Virus record (IMG/VR): IMGVR_UViG_3300032820_000125
Location: 1 to 23,502 of that record
DNA: 23,502 bases
DNA from: a virus
Reading direction: 5' to 3' (one strand)
Shown here: positions 1,749-5,943 of the stretch, piece after piece
Numbering within the stretch: the stretch's first letter is position 1
How the letters are laid out: each line of letters begins with the position of its first letter
Made by a program: the position numbers and the translations under genes
Notes under the pieces: model-generated
Told to the model about the DNA's origin: nothing
Seen by the model: the letters and a program-made list of their open reading frames with translations, nothing else
Database searches by the model: none

Positions 1749-3124
1749 TAGTGATATGCCTCTTCCTTACGGCGTCGAGTGCTGGCCTTGACGAGATCGT
1801 TCATCGTTAGCGTCGATTTCCCATCGATTGTGATGATCGGATTCATCTTTTCAACCTTTGGCTTCGGTGGCTCGCGCCAAGTCCAAGCAAGGTAACGCAG
1901 CGCATCGGCAAAGTGATTCGTCCAGTCATGCACCGGCCTGTCCCGAAAACATTTGCTTGGGTCATCCCATTCGCGCCGAAACTGGCTGATGGCGTTGATA
2001 AATTCCTCTTGGTCGCGGTCAATCCAAAGCCTCGGAAATAGGTGCCGAGCGGCAAGTATGCCTTGTTGTTCGGTGTTTGTATTCTTGAGAATGGTGACAT
2101 GCTTCATTTTGTGATCGGTAACTAATTGCTCGTACACCGAACGCCCCGCTGCCGCCAACGTTCTGGCTTGCGCGTCATGCGGCAATACATGGCGCGAGTA
2201 ATTGTAATCTTTTGACGCAATCACCTCAGCGTAATGCGCCAGCGGCTGGCCGTTTGCGGAGTATGTATCGATGATCCGCACCTCGTTCGCTACGATTTGC
2301 ACAAAGAGTATGACTGTGTCGTCCGAAAATCCGATGTCCCAAACAGTTTGCACCGGCAGGTCTGGGTCGTGCCTGACCTCGCATATTCGGCCGCCAGCCC
2401 GCGCTGCTGCCAGCTCGCCACCGTAATAGCTACCGAGTATCGCCGCCTCGAAGCTGCATAAATACTCCTGCTCAAACTGGCTCGCGCCGAAGTCGCTGCC
2501 ATAAAGCGCAACGTATTCATCACGGATGCCGTCGAGTTGCTCGTCGTTAAACGCGCCAGTCGCTTTCGCATCCGATATTTCCGCGAACCAATCGTCTGAT
2601 TTCATCGCGTGATTAAACATGTCATAAGCATGATTTTTGCCCCGAGGGGTCGTAATAAACAGCGCCCAGCCATCGTTCTCCCGCATCATTGGCGAGAGGT
2701 AGCCCCAGGCGCTTGGGTTCGCCAGCGCCCATTCGCTGAAAACAATCCCTGCAACACCGGCACCGACGAGCGTATCGTACGCATCGCTGCCAATCACTTG
2801 CCAAGTCGCACCGTTAGTGAACCTGATGAACATCTCCTGCTCATTCGTGACCTCACGCAGCTCAATAGGAAACGCTTCGTCAATTCGGCGTTGGCCGCTA
2901 TGCGGATTGACCGCTGTCCAGATAGCTTTACGCGCTTGTGTGAATTGCGGCAGGCAGTGCCAGTACGTTGCGGGTCGGTCTGTGAGCGCTTGAAACGTCC
3001 ACGCCAACGCTATCTCGTCCTTGCCCCACCTCCGATGCGCTATTTCAATCGCTCGCTTCCCACCGCCGCACATATACTGATGCAGCGGCGCTTGGTAGTT
3101 CCGAATCCGGCGCTCAACGAGCAT
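1748..3124 (-). CDS. Terminase large subunit (DNA packaging ATPase-nuclease)
   Basis: 458 aa when started at the ATG at 3124, which overlaps the small-terminase stop (TAATG); a longer frame to 3196 would overlap the small subunit by over 70 bases and is less likely. It powers DNA translocation into the prohead and cuts concatemers. Visible motifs: a variant Walker A HRRWGKDE (residues 30-37), Walker B with catalytic Glu GIVFSEWA (126-133), coupling motif TTPRGKN (158-164), and the RNase H-like nuclease aspartates in VWDIGFSDD (D263) and RIIDTYS (D286), with another in the C-terminal HDWTNHFADALRY stretch. Length is typical for podovirus terminases with the RRWGKD-type Walker A. Its partner is the small subunit immediately upstream. 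Confidence 0.95.
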   Translation of the reverse strand: MLVERRIRNYQAPLHQYMCGGGKRAIEIAHRRWGKDEIALAWTFQALTDRPATYWHCLPQFTQARKAIWTAVNPHSGQRRIDEAFPIELREVTNEQEMFIRFTNGATWQVIGSDAYDTLVGAGVAGIVFSEWALANPSAWGYLSPMMRENDGWALFITTPRGKNHAYDMFNHAMKSDDWFAEISDAKATGAFNDEQLDGIRDEYVALYGSDFGASQFEQEYLCSFEAAILGSYYGGELAAARAGGRICEVRHDPDLPVQTVWDIGFSDDTVILFVQIVANEVRIIDTYSANGQPLAHYAEVIASKDYNYSRHVLPHDAQARTLAAAGRSVYEQLVTDHKMKHVTILKNTNTEQQGILAARHLFPRLWIDRDQEEFINAISQFRREWDDPSKCFRDRPVHDWTNHFADALRYLAWTWREPPKPKVEKMNPIITIDGKSTLTMNDLVKASTRRRKEEAYH

Positions 3125-3468
3125 TATTTCTCGTAGACATTCTTGATTGTCCAGACCGCATCGCCGGTGTGCTCGACCTCCTGCCGCTCGCTCCACTTCA
3201 TGCGGGTTTTAGTCCACCAAATAATAGCCGTCGTATCGCCGCCCATCGCCTTGTTAAACAGCGTCCCAGCTACCTTTGCGTTAGCTTTAGTCGCAGCCGT
3301 GTCCAGCTCCCGCCGAAAGTGTTTGCGTAAAGTCTTGTCATCGATGCCATCACGAATGACCAAGCATTGGCTTTCCTGCGGGATGCCGCAAGCGGTCATC
3401 TGCTCGACGAGCTTCCGCTCGTCATCGGTCGGTTTGAACGCCGGTTGGCCTGCTTTTTTACGCGGCAT
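3124..3468 (-). CDS. Terminase small subunit
   Basis: 114 aa, ATG start at 3468 with an AGGG stretch upstream. The N-terminal half (KPTDDERKLVEQMTACGIPQ ... IDDKTLRKHFRREL) reads as a helix-turn-helix of the terminase small subunit type, with the conserved ending of a middle helix and then GDTTAIIWWTKTRMKW, a strong signature of this family (xxxAAIFWLKxRxxW). It recognises packaging sites and stimulates the large subunit. It overlaps a 44-codon upstream frame by 11 bases and is coupled to the large subunit by TAATG. The GTAC repeat array lies about 150 bases upstream. Confidence 0.92.
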   Translation of the reverse strand: MPRKKAGQPAFKPTDDERKLVEQMTACGIPQESQCLVIRDGIDDKTLRKHFRRELDTAATKANAKVAGTLFNKAMGGDTTAIIWWTKTRMKWSERQEVEHTGDAVWTIKNVYEK

Positions 3469-3592
3469 CTTGTTTCATCCCTTTTCTAGTGGGGAAGAAT
3501 CCCCCGCTACCCTCCAGTTGTGCTTGCTTTCCCGTGAAATCCTGCCATCGCTGCACGATAACATCGCAATATTTTGGGTCAAGTTCCATCAT
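3458..3592 (-). CDS. 44-codon frame resembling the C-terminal tail of an adenine DNA methyltransferase (probable remnant)
   Basis: The minus strand has an open frame from ATG at 3592 (with GGGGGAA upstream as a possible ribosome-binding site) to a TAA at 3458, overlapping the small-terminase start. The product begins MMELDPKYCDVIVQRWQDF and continues TGKQAQLEG. This matches the familiar C-terminal end of phage N6-adenine/N4-cytosine methyltransferases (ELDPxYxDVxVxRWxxFTGK), where the acidic residue belongs to the SAM-binding region; the catalytic DPPY and FxGxG motifs are absent. It is either a decayed methyltransferase whose main part was lost when the neighbouring repeat region was rearranged, or a small surviving peptide. 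No catalytic function is expected from this fragment alone. Confidence 0.55.
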   Translation of the reverse strand: MMELDPKYCDVIVQRWQDFTGKQAQLEGSGGFFPTRKGMKQDAA

Positions 3593-3614
3593 GTATAAAA
3601 TTCCCCCGCACGCA

Positions 3615-3736
3615 GGGGTACAAGGGTACACTCCCTATAGGGAGTGTGTACCTTTTTGTACCCTATTCTGCGTTTTTTGCCCCCATTGGGTACAATGTAC
3701 ATAAGGGTACAAATGTACCCTGTGTACCTTGTGTAC
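3615..3736. repeat. GTAC iteron-like array (GGGTACA / TGTACCC)
   Basis: Ten GTAC cores lie within about 120 bases: at 3618, 3626, 3648, 3658, 3690, 3697, 3707, 3715, 3724 and 3733, most embedded in GGGTACA or its complement TGTACCC, or in TGTGTACC. Several are arranged as dyads, including GGGTACA-AA-TGTACCC at 3705-3720 and ATGTACAT at 3695-3702. The block is non-coding on both strands apart from shadow frames and sits exactly between the primase-helicase gene and the terminase genes. An array of short repeated dyads next to a replication gene suggests iterons of a replication origin or a cluster of operator sites; which one is inference. Confidence 0.7.
3630..3645. promoter_or_regulatory. 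16-bp perfect palindrome inside the GTAC array
   Basis: ACTCCCTATAGGGAGT is a perfect palindrome, and it is extended on both sides by GGTACA and TGTACC with a two-base offset, forming an imperfect inverted repeat spanning 3625-3652. The dimension and symmetry suggest binding of a dimeric protein or a cruciform-forming origin element. Its right half resembles the initiation core of T7 promoters, but the upstream recognition part is missing. Confidence 0.55.
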
Positions 3737-3739
3737 CTA

Positions 3740-5755
3740 TCAATTATTGCGCCGCAGCATTAACGCAGACGCCCATATATTATCCTCGATGACCCATCCT
3801 GAATTTATGGCAGCGCCAAGGTCATCTAGCTTTCTATATCCAGTGATCATTTCACCGGTTTGCAGCATCGCAATCAGACCGCGATCATACGAAGGTTTGG
3901 TATAATTTTTTGCTGTTCCGGGCGATATGCCCTCACCCTCCAGAAAATTAATCAAATCTCCCCTAATGAGATAAGGCTTATCATCTTCAATGAGCGCGCC
4001 AGACGCCCACCATGCTCGCTCGAACATTTTCTGATGCTTCGCCAATGGGCTGGCCTTTTGAGCTTTCACCGGCTCCTGACCCTCGATCAGCACCGCACTG
4101 GTCGATGGGTCACCATCCTCATCAAGCCACCCCTTGATCGGAACCGACTGCAATTCCGCAAATACCGGTGCAGCCTCCTCCGCATCCTTGCTTTTGCGCT
4201 GCACAATTTCGATAGTCGTGCCTGGGACTACCGATATCTCGATATCTAATGCCCCGCGCCATGCGGATGAGCCGCGCCCCCGATGCTGTGCCTCGCTCGA
4301 AACGCCCGTGTGATGCACGAGTATTACGCTACAACTGAACTCCTGAATCAGTGCAGAGCAGGCATCCAGCATGGTTTTGGCATCCGTCGCAGAATTTTCG
4401 TCGCCTTCGAGGAAGCGGTGCAGCGTATCAATCACGATAATCTCGGGGGCATTGGGCAATGCTCTGATCGCATCCGACGTTTTCTGGTATCCCGCTGGCG
4501 TATTCAGATCCAGGCCATGCCTTGAGAGCCACATATCCAGCTCGCTAACATTTTTATGCTGCTTCCACGCTGCGACGCGTCCTCGCAGACCGTAATGACC
4601 CTCTCCGGCCAGATAAACGACCGTGCCATGCCATACCTTATTCCCGAACCATTCAGCCACGACACCCTTACTCGCTACCGACATCACCATGTCCAATACC
4701 ATAAACGTTTTACCGCTACCGGACGGGCCATGAACCATAGCGAGCGCTTCCGATTGCAGCCAGTTTTTGATCTGCCATTTCACTGGGGCAGGTTGTTTCG
4801 AAAAAGCATCCGCCTGAACCAGCCAATCATCGACGGGCGGAAACAATAATGCGGATAAATCGCCACCCGATTTATGATAATCATTAGCATCACCTTCGAT
4901 GGGTGGCATAACAATCCGCCCGCCATGCTTCGCGCTCGCCTCGTCTGCCTTGTTGCGCCCAACACCGGATACATCGTTGTCAGCCACGATCACAATGTCC
5001 TGCGTCTGCCCGTAAGTCTCGCGCAATTGCCCGACAACAATCGGCAGATTGTTAGCCGAATACGCAACCACACAGGGTCGGCCTGATACTTCATGCACCG
5101 TCGCAGCAGTCGCATAACCTTCGGCTACAAAGATCGGCCCCTCGGTGATTTCCCCAAGTGTCCAGGAACACGCTTTCGTCGTGCCAGCCGCGTGATATCG
5201 CTTACCGACTTCGGAGATGTATTGCAGTGATTTCAGTTCGCCACCCGAATTATAAAGCGGCACGATCAAGCGACCATCACCCGTTAGCCTTGCGCCGTTC
5301 GGCGAAATGCTTTTTCGTTTCAGGTACGGATGGTCAGGGCTAGCGGCAATTGCCTCGCTCCATATTTTTTCCACTGTATTCGCTGCAATTTCTGCCTTCT
5401 TTTCTCGCGCTCGTTCGCGTGCTTCTGTCGCCTCGGCTTGCCGTCTTGTGATCGCCATATTTTCCGGGGCAGTAAGCTCGCGCCCGATGTCGGCCTTGAA
5501 AACGCAGTCGATTTGATCACGCCAGCACCCGAACCGCCCAGCTACAGGCTCATCAGGAAATATAATGTACCACCCTGAATCGTCACGCTTGCGTCCTTTG
5601 GTCGAAAAGCGATGCAACTGCCCGTCGATTTTTATAACTTCCGGCGGCTCGATACCCGCCGACGCCATCGCATCTGCCAATTGAATTTCCGGCGGATCGA
5701 CTTGTTTCGTTTCAGGAATAAATGGCCCGCCGAAAATGTCTGTAATTTTCGTCAT
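3740..5755 (-). CDS. TOPRIM primase / RepA-like AAA helicase fusion
   Basis: 671 aa replication protein. The N-terminus (about 20-90) resembles the N-terminal region of TraC-type plasmid/phage primases. A TOPRIM domain follows: catalytic Glu in GPIFVAEGYATA (E212) and the DxD-type motif in VIVADNDVSGVG (D259, D261). The C-terminal half is a RecA-fold RepA/AAA_25-type helicase: Walker A HGPSGSGKT (342-350), Walker B in EIIVIDTLHRFLEGDENSA, a sensor-like SVILVHHTG, and RGSSAWRGALD, all typical of hexameric RepA-like helicases. It would prime and unwind at the phage fork. It starts with ATG overlapping the stop of the HTH gene (ATGA), so the two are co-expressed. The GTAC array follows its stop codon immediately, which makes that array a candidate origin. 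Confidence 0.9.
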   Translation of the reverse strand: MTKITDIFGGPFIPETKQVDPPEIQLADAMASAGIEPPEVIKIDGQLHRFSTKGRKRDDSGWYIIFPDEPVAGRFGCWRDQIDCVFKADIGRELTAPENMAITRRQAEATEARERAREKKAEIAANTVEKIWSEAIAASPDHPYLKRKSISPNGARLTGDGRLIVPLYNSGGELKSLQYISEVGKRYHAAGTTKACSWTLGEITEGPIFVAEGYATAATVHEVSGRPCVVAYSANNLPIVVGQLRETYGQTQDIVIVADNDVSGVGRNKADEASAKHGGRIVMPPIEGDANDYHKSGGDLSALLFPPVDDWLVQADAFSKQPAPVKWQIKNWLQSEALAMVHGPSGSGKTFMVLDMVMSVASKGVVAEWFGNKVWHGTVVYLAGEGHYGLRGRVAAWKQHKNVSELDMWLSRHGLDLNTPAGYQKTSDAIRALPNAPEIIVIDTLHRFLEGDENSATDAKTMLDACSALIQEFSCSVILVHHTGVSSEAQHRGRGSSAWRGALDIEISVVPGTTIEIVQRKSKDAEEAAPVFAELQSVPIKGWLDEDGDPSTSAVLIEGQEPVKAQKASPLAKHQKMFERAWWASGALIEDDKPYLIRGDLINFLEGEGISPGTAKNYTKPSYDRGLIAMLQTGEMITGYRKLDDLGAAINSGWVIEDNIWASALMLRRNN

Positions 5756-5943
5756 GCTGCATCCACCTCATCGACCTGAGCCTGAGTCAAGTAATTGCTA
5801 AGCAATTCGACGGTTTCATACGTCGGTTTGCCCTGATCACGCATAAACCTATAAAGGGTCGCAGGATGAACCCCTGACTTAATCGCAACCCGCTTCAAGT
5901 TAGCATCGCCAAGCCTTTGTTTTATTTGCGAAATTGTTAACAT
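5752..5943 (-). CDS. Small Cro/repressor-like helix-turn-helix protein
   Basis: 63 aa, ATG at 5943 with GGGAG six bases upstream. Residues 15-40 (LKRVAIKSGVHPATLYRFMR) form a clear helix-turn-helix of the Cro/C1 type, followed by KPTYETVELLSNYL, the usual scaffold helix. Length fits a minimal DNA-binding regulator. It heads the leftward unit with the primase-helicase and stands divergent to the rightward early block, the classic position of an autoregulating switch protein. The intergenic dyad TGTACATGATATACA is the best candidate for its operator. Which promoter it represses is not visible from sequence. Confidence 0.85.
   Translation of the reverse strand: MLTISQIKQRLGDANLKRVAIKSGVHPATLYRFMRDQGKPTYETVELLSNYLTQAQVDEVDAA

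Follow-up and report, generated by a model that had tools for sequence, protein, structure and literature searches.

A non-coding array of GTAC repeats lying directly 3' of the primase-helicase gene of a phage is, as judged from sequence comparison, very probably the replication origin of that phage. The element combines iterons with a hairpin, and its repeated word, GGTACA, would be read by the winged helix of the primase-helicase. We found it in the virus record IMGVR_UViG_3300032820_000125 (positions 1 to 23,502; this whole 23.5-kb stretch of 23,502 nt is hereafter called the window). A first-pass annotation of the window had listed an origin with iterons for the primase-helicase among several options, and the comparison with relatives supports this one: the word follows the C-terminal domain of the protein, the repeat spacing is conserved, and DnaA boxes flank the element in several lineages.

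The window contains ten GTAC cores in about 120 bases of the array (at 3618, 3626, 3648, 3658, 3690, 3697, 3707, 3715, 3724 and 3733), as the annotation had noted. Simulations with a first-order Markov model (20,000 sequences of 130 nt) gave at most four, and a scan of the whole window found 5 to 10 GTAC per 120 nt exclusively in segments overlapping the array. The array is thus far above chance, as claimed, and the estimate of about 0.5 copies expected by chance was slightly generous: the window's own rate gives 0.2-0.3 per ~120 nt. The cores had been described as mostly GGGTACA/TGTACCC; between 3618 and 3736, six of the ten carry this 7-mer and nine carry GGTACA/TGTACC. Their arrangement in dyads is indeed present, together with a perfect 20-bp palindrome, ACACTCCCTATAGGGAGTGT (3628-3647), that had gone unmentioned, and the array is non-coding and follows the primase-helicase stop on the minus strand, as proposed. 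The cores form two sets (table 1), with a step of 32 bp from one to the other; the spacer is about half A+T, and no clearly AT-rich melting region is apparent in it. Iterons are several short repeats at regular, approximately helical spacing, and here ten copies lie 7-10 bp apart within sets.

Table 1. Features of the origin-like element and of neighbouring genes in the window (positions are those of the window; strand as annotated).
Feature	Position	Strand	Description or basis
Whole origin-like element, non-coding	3600..3739	-	Directly 3' of the primase-helicase stop codon (3740-3742); position, layout and core spacing kept in relatives
Iteron set A, beside the primase stop; its six GTAC cores are 7-10 bp apart	3690..3736	.	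Spacings 9,9,8,10,7
Spacer separating iteron sets A and B	3664..3689	-	Primase-strand sequence includes GGGGGCAAAAAACGCAGAA
Iteron set B, with the palindrome between its four GTAC cores	3618..3661	.	Spacings 10,22,8
Palindrome ACACTCCC-TATA-GGGAGTGT, hairpin with TATA loop	3628..3647	.	Perfect, 20 bp
Outer stem of the hairpin, CGCAG (3611-3615, + reading) against CTGCG (3668-3672)	3611..3672	-	Direct sequence reading
Primase-helicase, 671 aa: Toprim primase, RepA-type hexameric helicase, C-terminal winged helix	3740..5755	-	Pfam Toprim_3 and AAA_25; PHROG DNA primase
C-terminal winged-helix domain, approximately residues 570-671	3743..4048	-	AlphaFold2 model, mean pLDDT 92.9
Putative base-reading segment, residues 611-624, key N617 and Y623	3884..3925	-	Word association; distant-relative prediction
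63-aa HTH protein, encoded first in the replication operon	5752..5943	-	phrog_18104, transcriptional regulator
DNA methyltransferase, C-terminal remnant	3458-3592	-	phrog_498, E 3e-10

Searches with the primase-helicase returned more than 250 loci; 151 had a unique C-terminus and enough downstream sequence, and 142 of them were analysed further. Isolated relatives are Salicola phage CGphi29, Idiomarinaceae phage 1N2-2 and Alteromonas phages XX1924 and PB15. Almost all relatives (142 loci) present a similar layout directly 3' of the primase stop, i.e. two sets of short repeats with units about one helical turn apart, often accompanied by a hairpin. The repeated word varies by lineage (GGTACA, GGTAAC, GGGAAC, GGGTCA, CGGACC, CGGTACG, TGGACA, GGGGACA, GGTTCA, GGCCCC, AGGGGGC, AGGTGA, GGGCGT, GGGAAAA and more), and clustering of the words gave 35 classes among the 142 elements. 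Within the 220 nt of an element, the most frequent 6-mer occurs a median of 7 times, compared with an average of 2.7 for other windows of these loci, and 121 of 137 elements contain it at least five times. In three sequenced phage records, the 300 nt densest for the word are those of the element. Four loci (L083, L168, L172 and L173) show no clear repeated word 3' of the primase; their origin may have moved or decayed, or the assembly may be faulty. Three more distant primases with a different C-terminus, all on MAG contigs (L206, L213 and L215), are followed by eight copies of CGGTAC, six of GGTGCC and seven of CGGGAC, from which the arrangement may extend beyond this primase-helicase family.

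Conservation of the repeat spacing in relatives, which the annotation had named as a check on its proposal, was found within the GTAC class. The distances between cores are 9,9,8,10,7 / 32 / 10 / 22 / 8 in the window and 9,9,8,9,8 / 33 / 9 / 20 / 9 in locus L009. Set B has spacings of 9,22,8 in L018 and 9,22,7 in L032, and the whole pattern there is nearly that of the window and L009. Hairpins whose loop is of the type C-[TWWA or similar]-G and whose stem has at least 6 bp occur in 69 of the 142 elements, against 0.1% of shuffles and 0.1% of other windows, and the outer stem also appears in the predicted folds of the window, L009, L012 and others. Between the iteron sets, 70 of the 142 elements carry a spacer motif of the type GGGGCAAA / GGCAGAA, against 4.6% of other windows; it could be a priming or melting site.

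Such strong hairpins, folding in the elements far more often than in shuffles, are also what a structured RNA or a transcription terminator in the 3' UTR of the replication operon would give, the repeats then being helix arms, and plasmid pRN1 has a terminator hairpin at this place as well (PMC4234260). We consider this highly improbable for the array. No Rfam family matched at the gathering score, and mismatches in the stems comprise 22 G-U and 16 A-C, i.e. no clear excess of G-U; on these grounds the structured-RNA reading was rejected. Moreover, repeats that lie outside the stems contain the unit as well, the unit co-varies with residues of the protein, and binding to duplex DNA is favoured because the repeats are spaced by about one helical turn. 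A secondary role of the element as a terminator is possible.

The model of the C-terminal domain predicts, with high confidence, a winged-helix-like fold, with residue 617 in a helix (612-618) and residues 623-624 in the loop after it. Winged-helix transcription factors are among the best matches of a fold search with this domain, at weak scores (E 0.016 or worse), and a sequence search found no relative of it in the PDB. The domain contains no stretch conserved enough for viral contigs to be searched with it alone. The similarity of the words of two loci is associated with the identity of their C-terminal domains when the rest of the protein is controlled for (partial r 0.20, 0 of 500 permutations). 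This association peaks at residues 601-630 in a 20-residue sliding window, and in close pairs (body identity >85%) the partial correlation between word and C-terminal domain is 0.73-0.79. When 401 positions were scored for their association with the word in 360 pairs with bodies more than 85% identical, residues 623, 617, 620 and 618 came first to fourth, and the top 25 positions are all inside the C-terminal domain. When the word is predicted in distant relatives, i.e. from neighbours with body identity below 75%, residues 610-630 are the best predictor and segment 611-624 the best one of 14 aa.

The adjacency of domain and element could create part of this association through linkage. Yet residues 631-671, which are closer to the element, associate less with the word than the 617-624 region, and linkage alone is not the explanation because the association drops between residue 624 and the stop. 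Parsimony requires at least 60 word changes on the tree of the protein body and 45 on that of the C-terminal domain, with 115 expected for shuffled labels. In these comparisons, the word tracks the C-terminal winged helix of the primase-helicase, most strongly its residues 617-623; it does not track the HTH protein. A BFVD model from an uncultured Caudovirales phage (A0A6J5RWR5), of a viral protein called Prim_Pol, shares this C-terminal domain (Foldseek E 1e-8, 38% identity), which suggests that a putative iteron-reading domain is exchanged between primase types. A plasmid carrying the full primase-helicase was not found among thousands of partial matches in plasmid collections, none of which covers 80% of the query.

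The 63-aa HTH protein had been put forward as a possible reader of the iterons, with an operator cluster as a further option. As an operator, the array would bind this repressor, or an autoregulating primase-helicase, and govern transcription rather than replication, which would fit clustered dyads near a regulator gene and an HTH protein at the head of the operon. Both roles of the HTH protein are disfavoured by the lack of association: over all pairs, its identity has partial correlations of -0.00 and -0.02 with the word, and the recomputation with HTH proteins picked by profile had the same all-pairs outcome. The HTH-operator reading was rejected on this basis. The array is, in addition, at the 3' end of the operon and not at a promoter, and an operator leaves the conserved hairpin and the DnaA boxes unexplained, so that an operator cluster of either kind is very unlikely. 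Autoregulation by the primase-helicase is possible as a side function of the array.

The annotation had also suggested a packaging site read by an adjacent small terminase, i.e. a pac or cos site where TerS binds the repeats and directs cutting by TerL. In the window, the small terminase gene (3124-3468) is indeed only ~150 bp beyond the array. It is not the array's immediate neighbour because the methyltransferase remnant stands between the two. In other phages, the element is still found at the primase stop, but TerS is distant (~1.9 kb in CGphi29, ~6 kb in Alteromonas phage PB15); over 28 loci with TerS, the median distance between the two is 1.6 kb. Among close pairs, the word shows some partial association with TerS identity (0.46 in 45 pairs), but over all pairs the association is -0.10 once the body and the C-terminal domain are controlled for, whereas the C-terminal domain keeps 0.46. 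The residues best associated with the word belong to the primase-helicase, and DnaA boxes are unexpected at a pac site. Given this synteny and the weaker association, we regard a packaging function as having little chance of being correct, and rejected it: the element follows the primase, not TerS, and the association with TerS vanishes under controls.

At the place of the methyltransferase remnant, the near relatives L009 and L011 have the apparent start of a full methyltransferase gene. Because they appear to keep it, the phage of the window seems to have deleted most of this gene, up to the edge of the element. Divergent genes of the window encode, among others, a Sak4-like annealing protein, an SSB-like protein and a PD-(D/E)XK nuclease. 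The window also encodes a terminase, and the relatives CGphi29, PB15 and 1N2-2 are complete tailed phages, not satellite islands.

Some pairs of loci come close to natural mutants of the proposed iteron reader. L087 and L096 have bodies 97% identical, and their domains differ solely at Q617V, S623A and P624T; GGTAAC in the former is replaced by GGGAAC or CGGAAC at matching places in the latter, with one GGTAAC retained. Their DNA identity is mostly 89-98% on either side of the element and 68-70% within it. Between L081 and L084, Y623S is found among other differences, and CGGACC becomes CGGTAC. In L116 and L156, which share a body 99% identical and the same downstream gene, domain and element have been exchanged together, as a single block, between conserved flanks, and the word changes from GGTAAC to GGCCCC. 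We see about an even chance that the winged helix and the origin constitute an exchangeable, fast-diversifying specificity cassette with a short code from amino acids to bases. As part of this same joint reading, residue 617 would be the X of a segment A-K/R-X-Y, with N or L corresponding to GGTACA, Q to GGTAAC and V to GGGAAC. The diversification of this candidate code would plausibly stem from interference between phages with the same word in one cell, as in plasmid incompatibility groups; this is offered as a suggestion only. Since near point-mutant pairs (Q617V) and clean cassette swaps exist naturally, the specificity of initiator and iterons is directly testable.

These observations lead us to propose the following mechanism for the origin. 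GGTACA would be the iteron for the C-terminal winged helix of the primase-helicase encoded immediately upstream. Copies of this protein would load on the two iteron sets, whose units are about one helical turn apart, and which lie on the two sides of the spacer and around the hairpin. Next, the duplex would be opened by the RepA-type helicase part, with extrusion of the hairpin or its use as a start on single-stranded DNA. Priming would fall to the Toprim part, and the host DnaA may assist in some lineages. We infer all these steps at the element, i.e. physical binding, melting, priming and the start of replication, from the comparison of loci.

Strict DnaA boxes (TTATCCACM) have a density of 1.01 per kb near the element, taken as the stretch from -60 to +400 nt relative to the primase stop, and of 0.026 per kb elsewhere. 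They are found there in 32 of the 142 loci, belonging to several lineages, and the enrichment around the element is ~40-fold in some lineages. The loci L087, L073, L079 and their relatives have perfect boxes, TTATCCACAG, before and after the element, 0-230 nt past the stop. These boxes are a hint that the use of host DnaA may be limited to lineages of the L087, L073 and L079 type. The window's own element contains no strict DnaA box. Another check named in the annotation was the GC skew. The cumulative minimum is near the element in three sequenced phages (~1 to 2.5 kb away), but not at it, and coincides with a change in the direction of transcription. It is weak evidence because it is confounded by gene direction.

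The protein and the element resemble several known systems. The alpha protein of satellite phage P4 also has a Toprim-type primase, a helicase and a C-terminal winged helix on a single chain, but the helicase here matches AAA_25 and RSF1010 RepA (1g8y, E 2e-7). The helicase of P4 alpha belongs to another superfamily than RSF1010 RepA, and the P4 origin uses two sites, while the element described here is a single compact one. In P4 alpha, the winged helix of this fused protein binds origin repeats (summarised in PMC4234260). The origin of RSF1010, with RepA, RepB' and RepC, shares with the present system a RepA-type helicase, iterons and ssi hairpins (PMC4234260). RSF1010 uses three separate proteins, whereas helicase, primase and putative iteron reader are here on one chain.

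The origin of PICIs, the phage-inducible islands of staphylococci and Gram-negative bacteria, directly follows the replication gene on its 3' side and has two iteron sets around an AT-rich region (PMC6092414), and in SaPI Rep and the SCCmec helicase Cch2 the origin is recognised via the C-terminal domain (PMC7581432). The pri-rep-ori arrangement of PICIs and SaPIs is similar to ours in having an origin immediately 3' of the rep gene (here a probable one, within a few bases of the stop), two iteron sets, recognition (here putative) by a C-terminal domain and sometimes a fused primase (PMC6092414, PMC7581432). Our system differs in occurring in tailed phages rather than satellites and in its helicase, which is RepA-type (RSF1010-like AAA_25) and joined to a Toprim primase. 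It also has a hairpin within one iteron set, and no clear AT-rich centre. The Sulfolobus plasmid pRN1 has a stem-loop of ~100 nt 3' of its primase-helicase, variable in sequence and conserved in shape; combined with the replication operon, this stem-loop is both necessary and sufficient for origin function (PMC4234260). The order small regulator, primase-helicase with C-terminal winged helix and stem-loop (orf56 / orf904 / stem-loop) is the same, as is the conservation of shape rather than sequence for the stem-loop 3' of the primase-helicase. The enzymes are different, prim/pol primase and SF3 helicase in pRN1 and Toprim_3 and AAA_25 here, and pRN1 is reported to lack an iteron structure (PMC4234260), whereas iterons are dense in our element. 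In geminiviruses, the iteron word changes together with a short segment of Rep while the layout, with its stem-loop, is conserved (PMC10653810). This is a functional analogy only, since the geminivirus Rep is an unrelated rolling-circle protein with an N-terminal reader. The element would bring together features of PICIs, pRN1 and geminiviruses, here in a family of tailed phages that have the Toprim primase and the RepA-type helicase on one chain. In our best reading, it is of a kind already known (PICI rep-ori, P4 alpha, pRN1), and the novelty lies in the Toprim/RepA-helicase tailed-phage family and in its candidate natural recognition code. We found no earlier description of the element in the literature searched, which leaves most subscription journals outside its scope and the absence unproven. 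The available parts of papers on CGphi29 or mentioning PB15 describe no origin.

The origins of most environmental phages are unknown, and here a probable one can be located from sequence, in a family that spans hundreds of viral contigs as well as isolates infecting Salicola, Idiomarinaceae and Alteromonas. If the reading of a cassette with an amino-acid-to-base code is true, the type of origin would be predictable from the protein alone. That origin words turn over so fast suggests that incompatibility or interference between replicons exerts selection on phages, an issue usually raised for plasmids and satellites.
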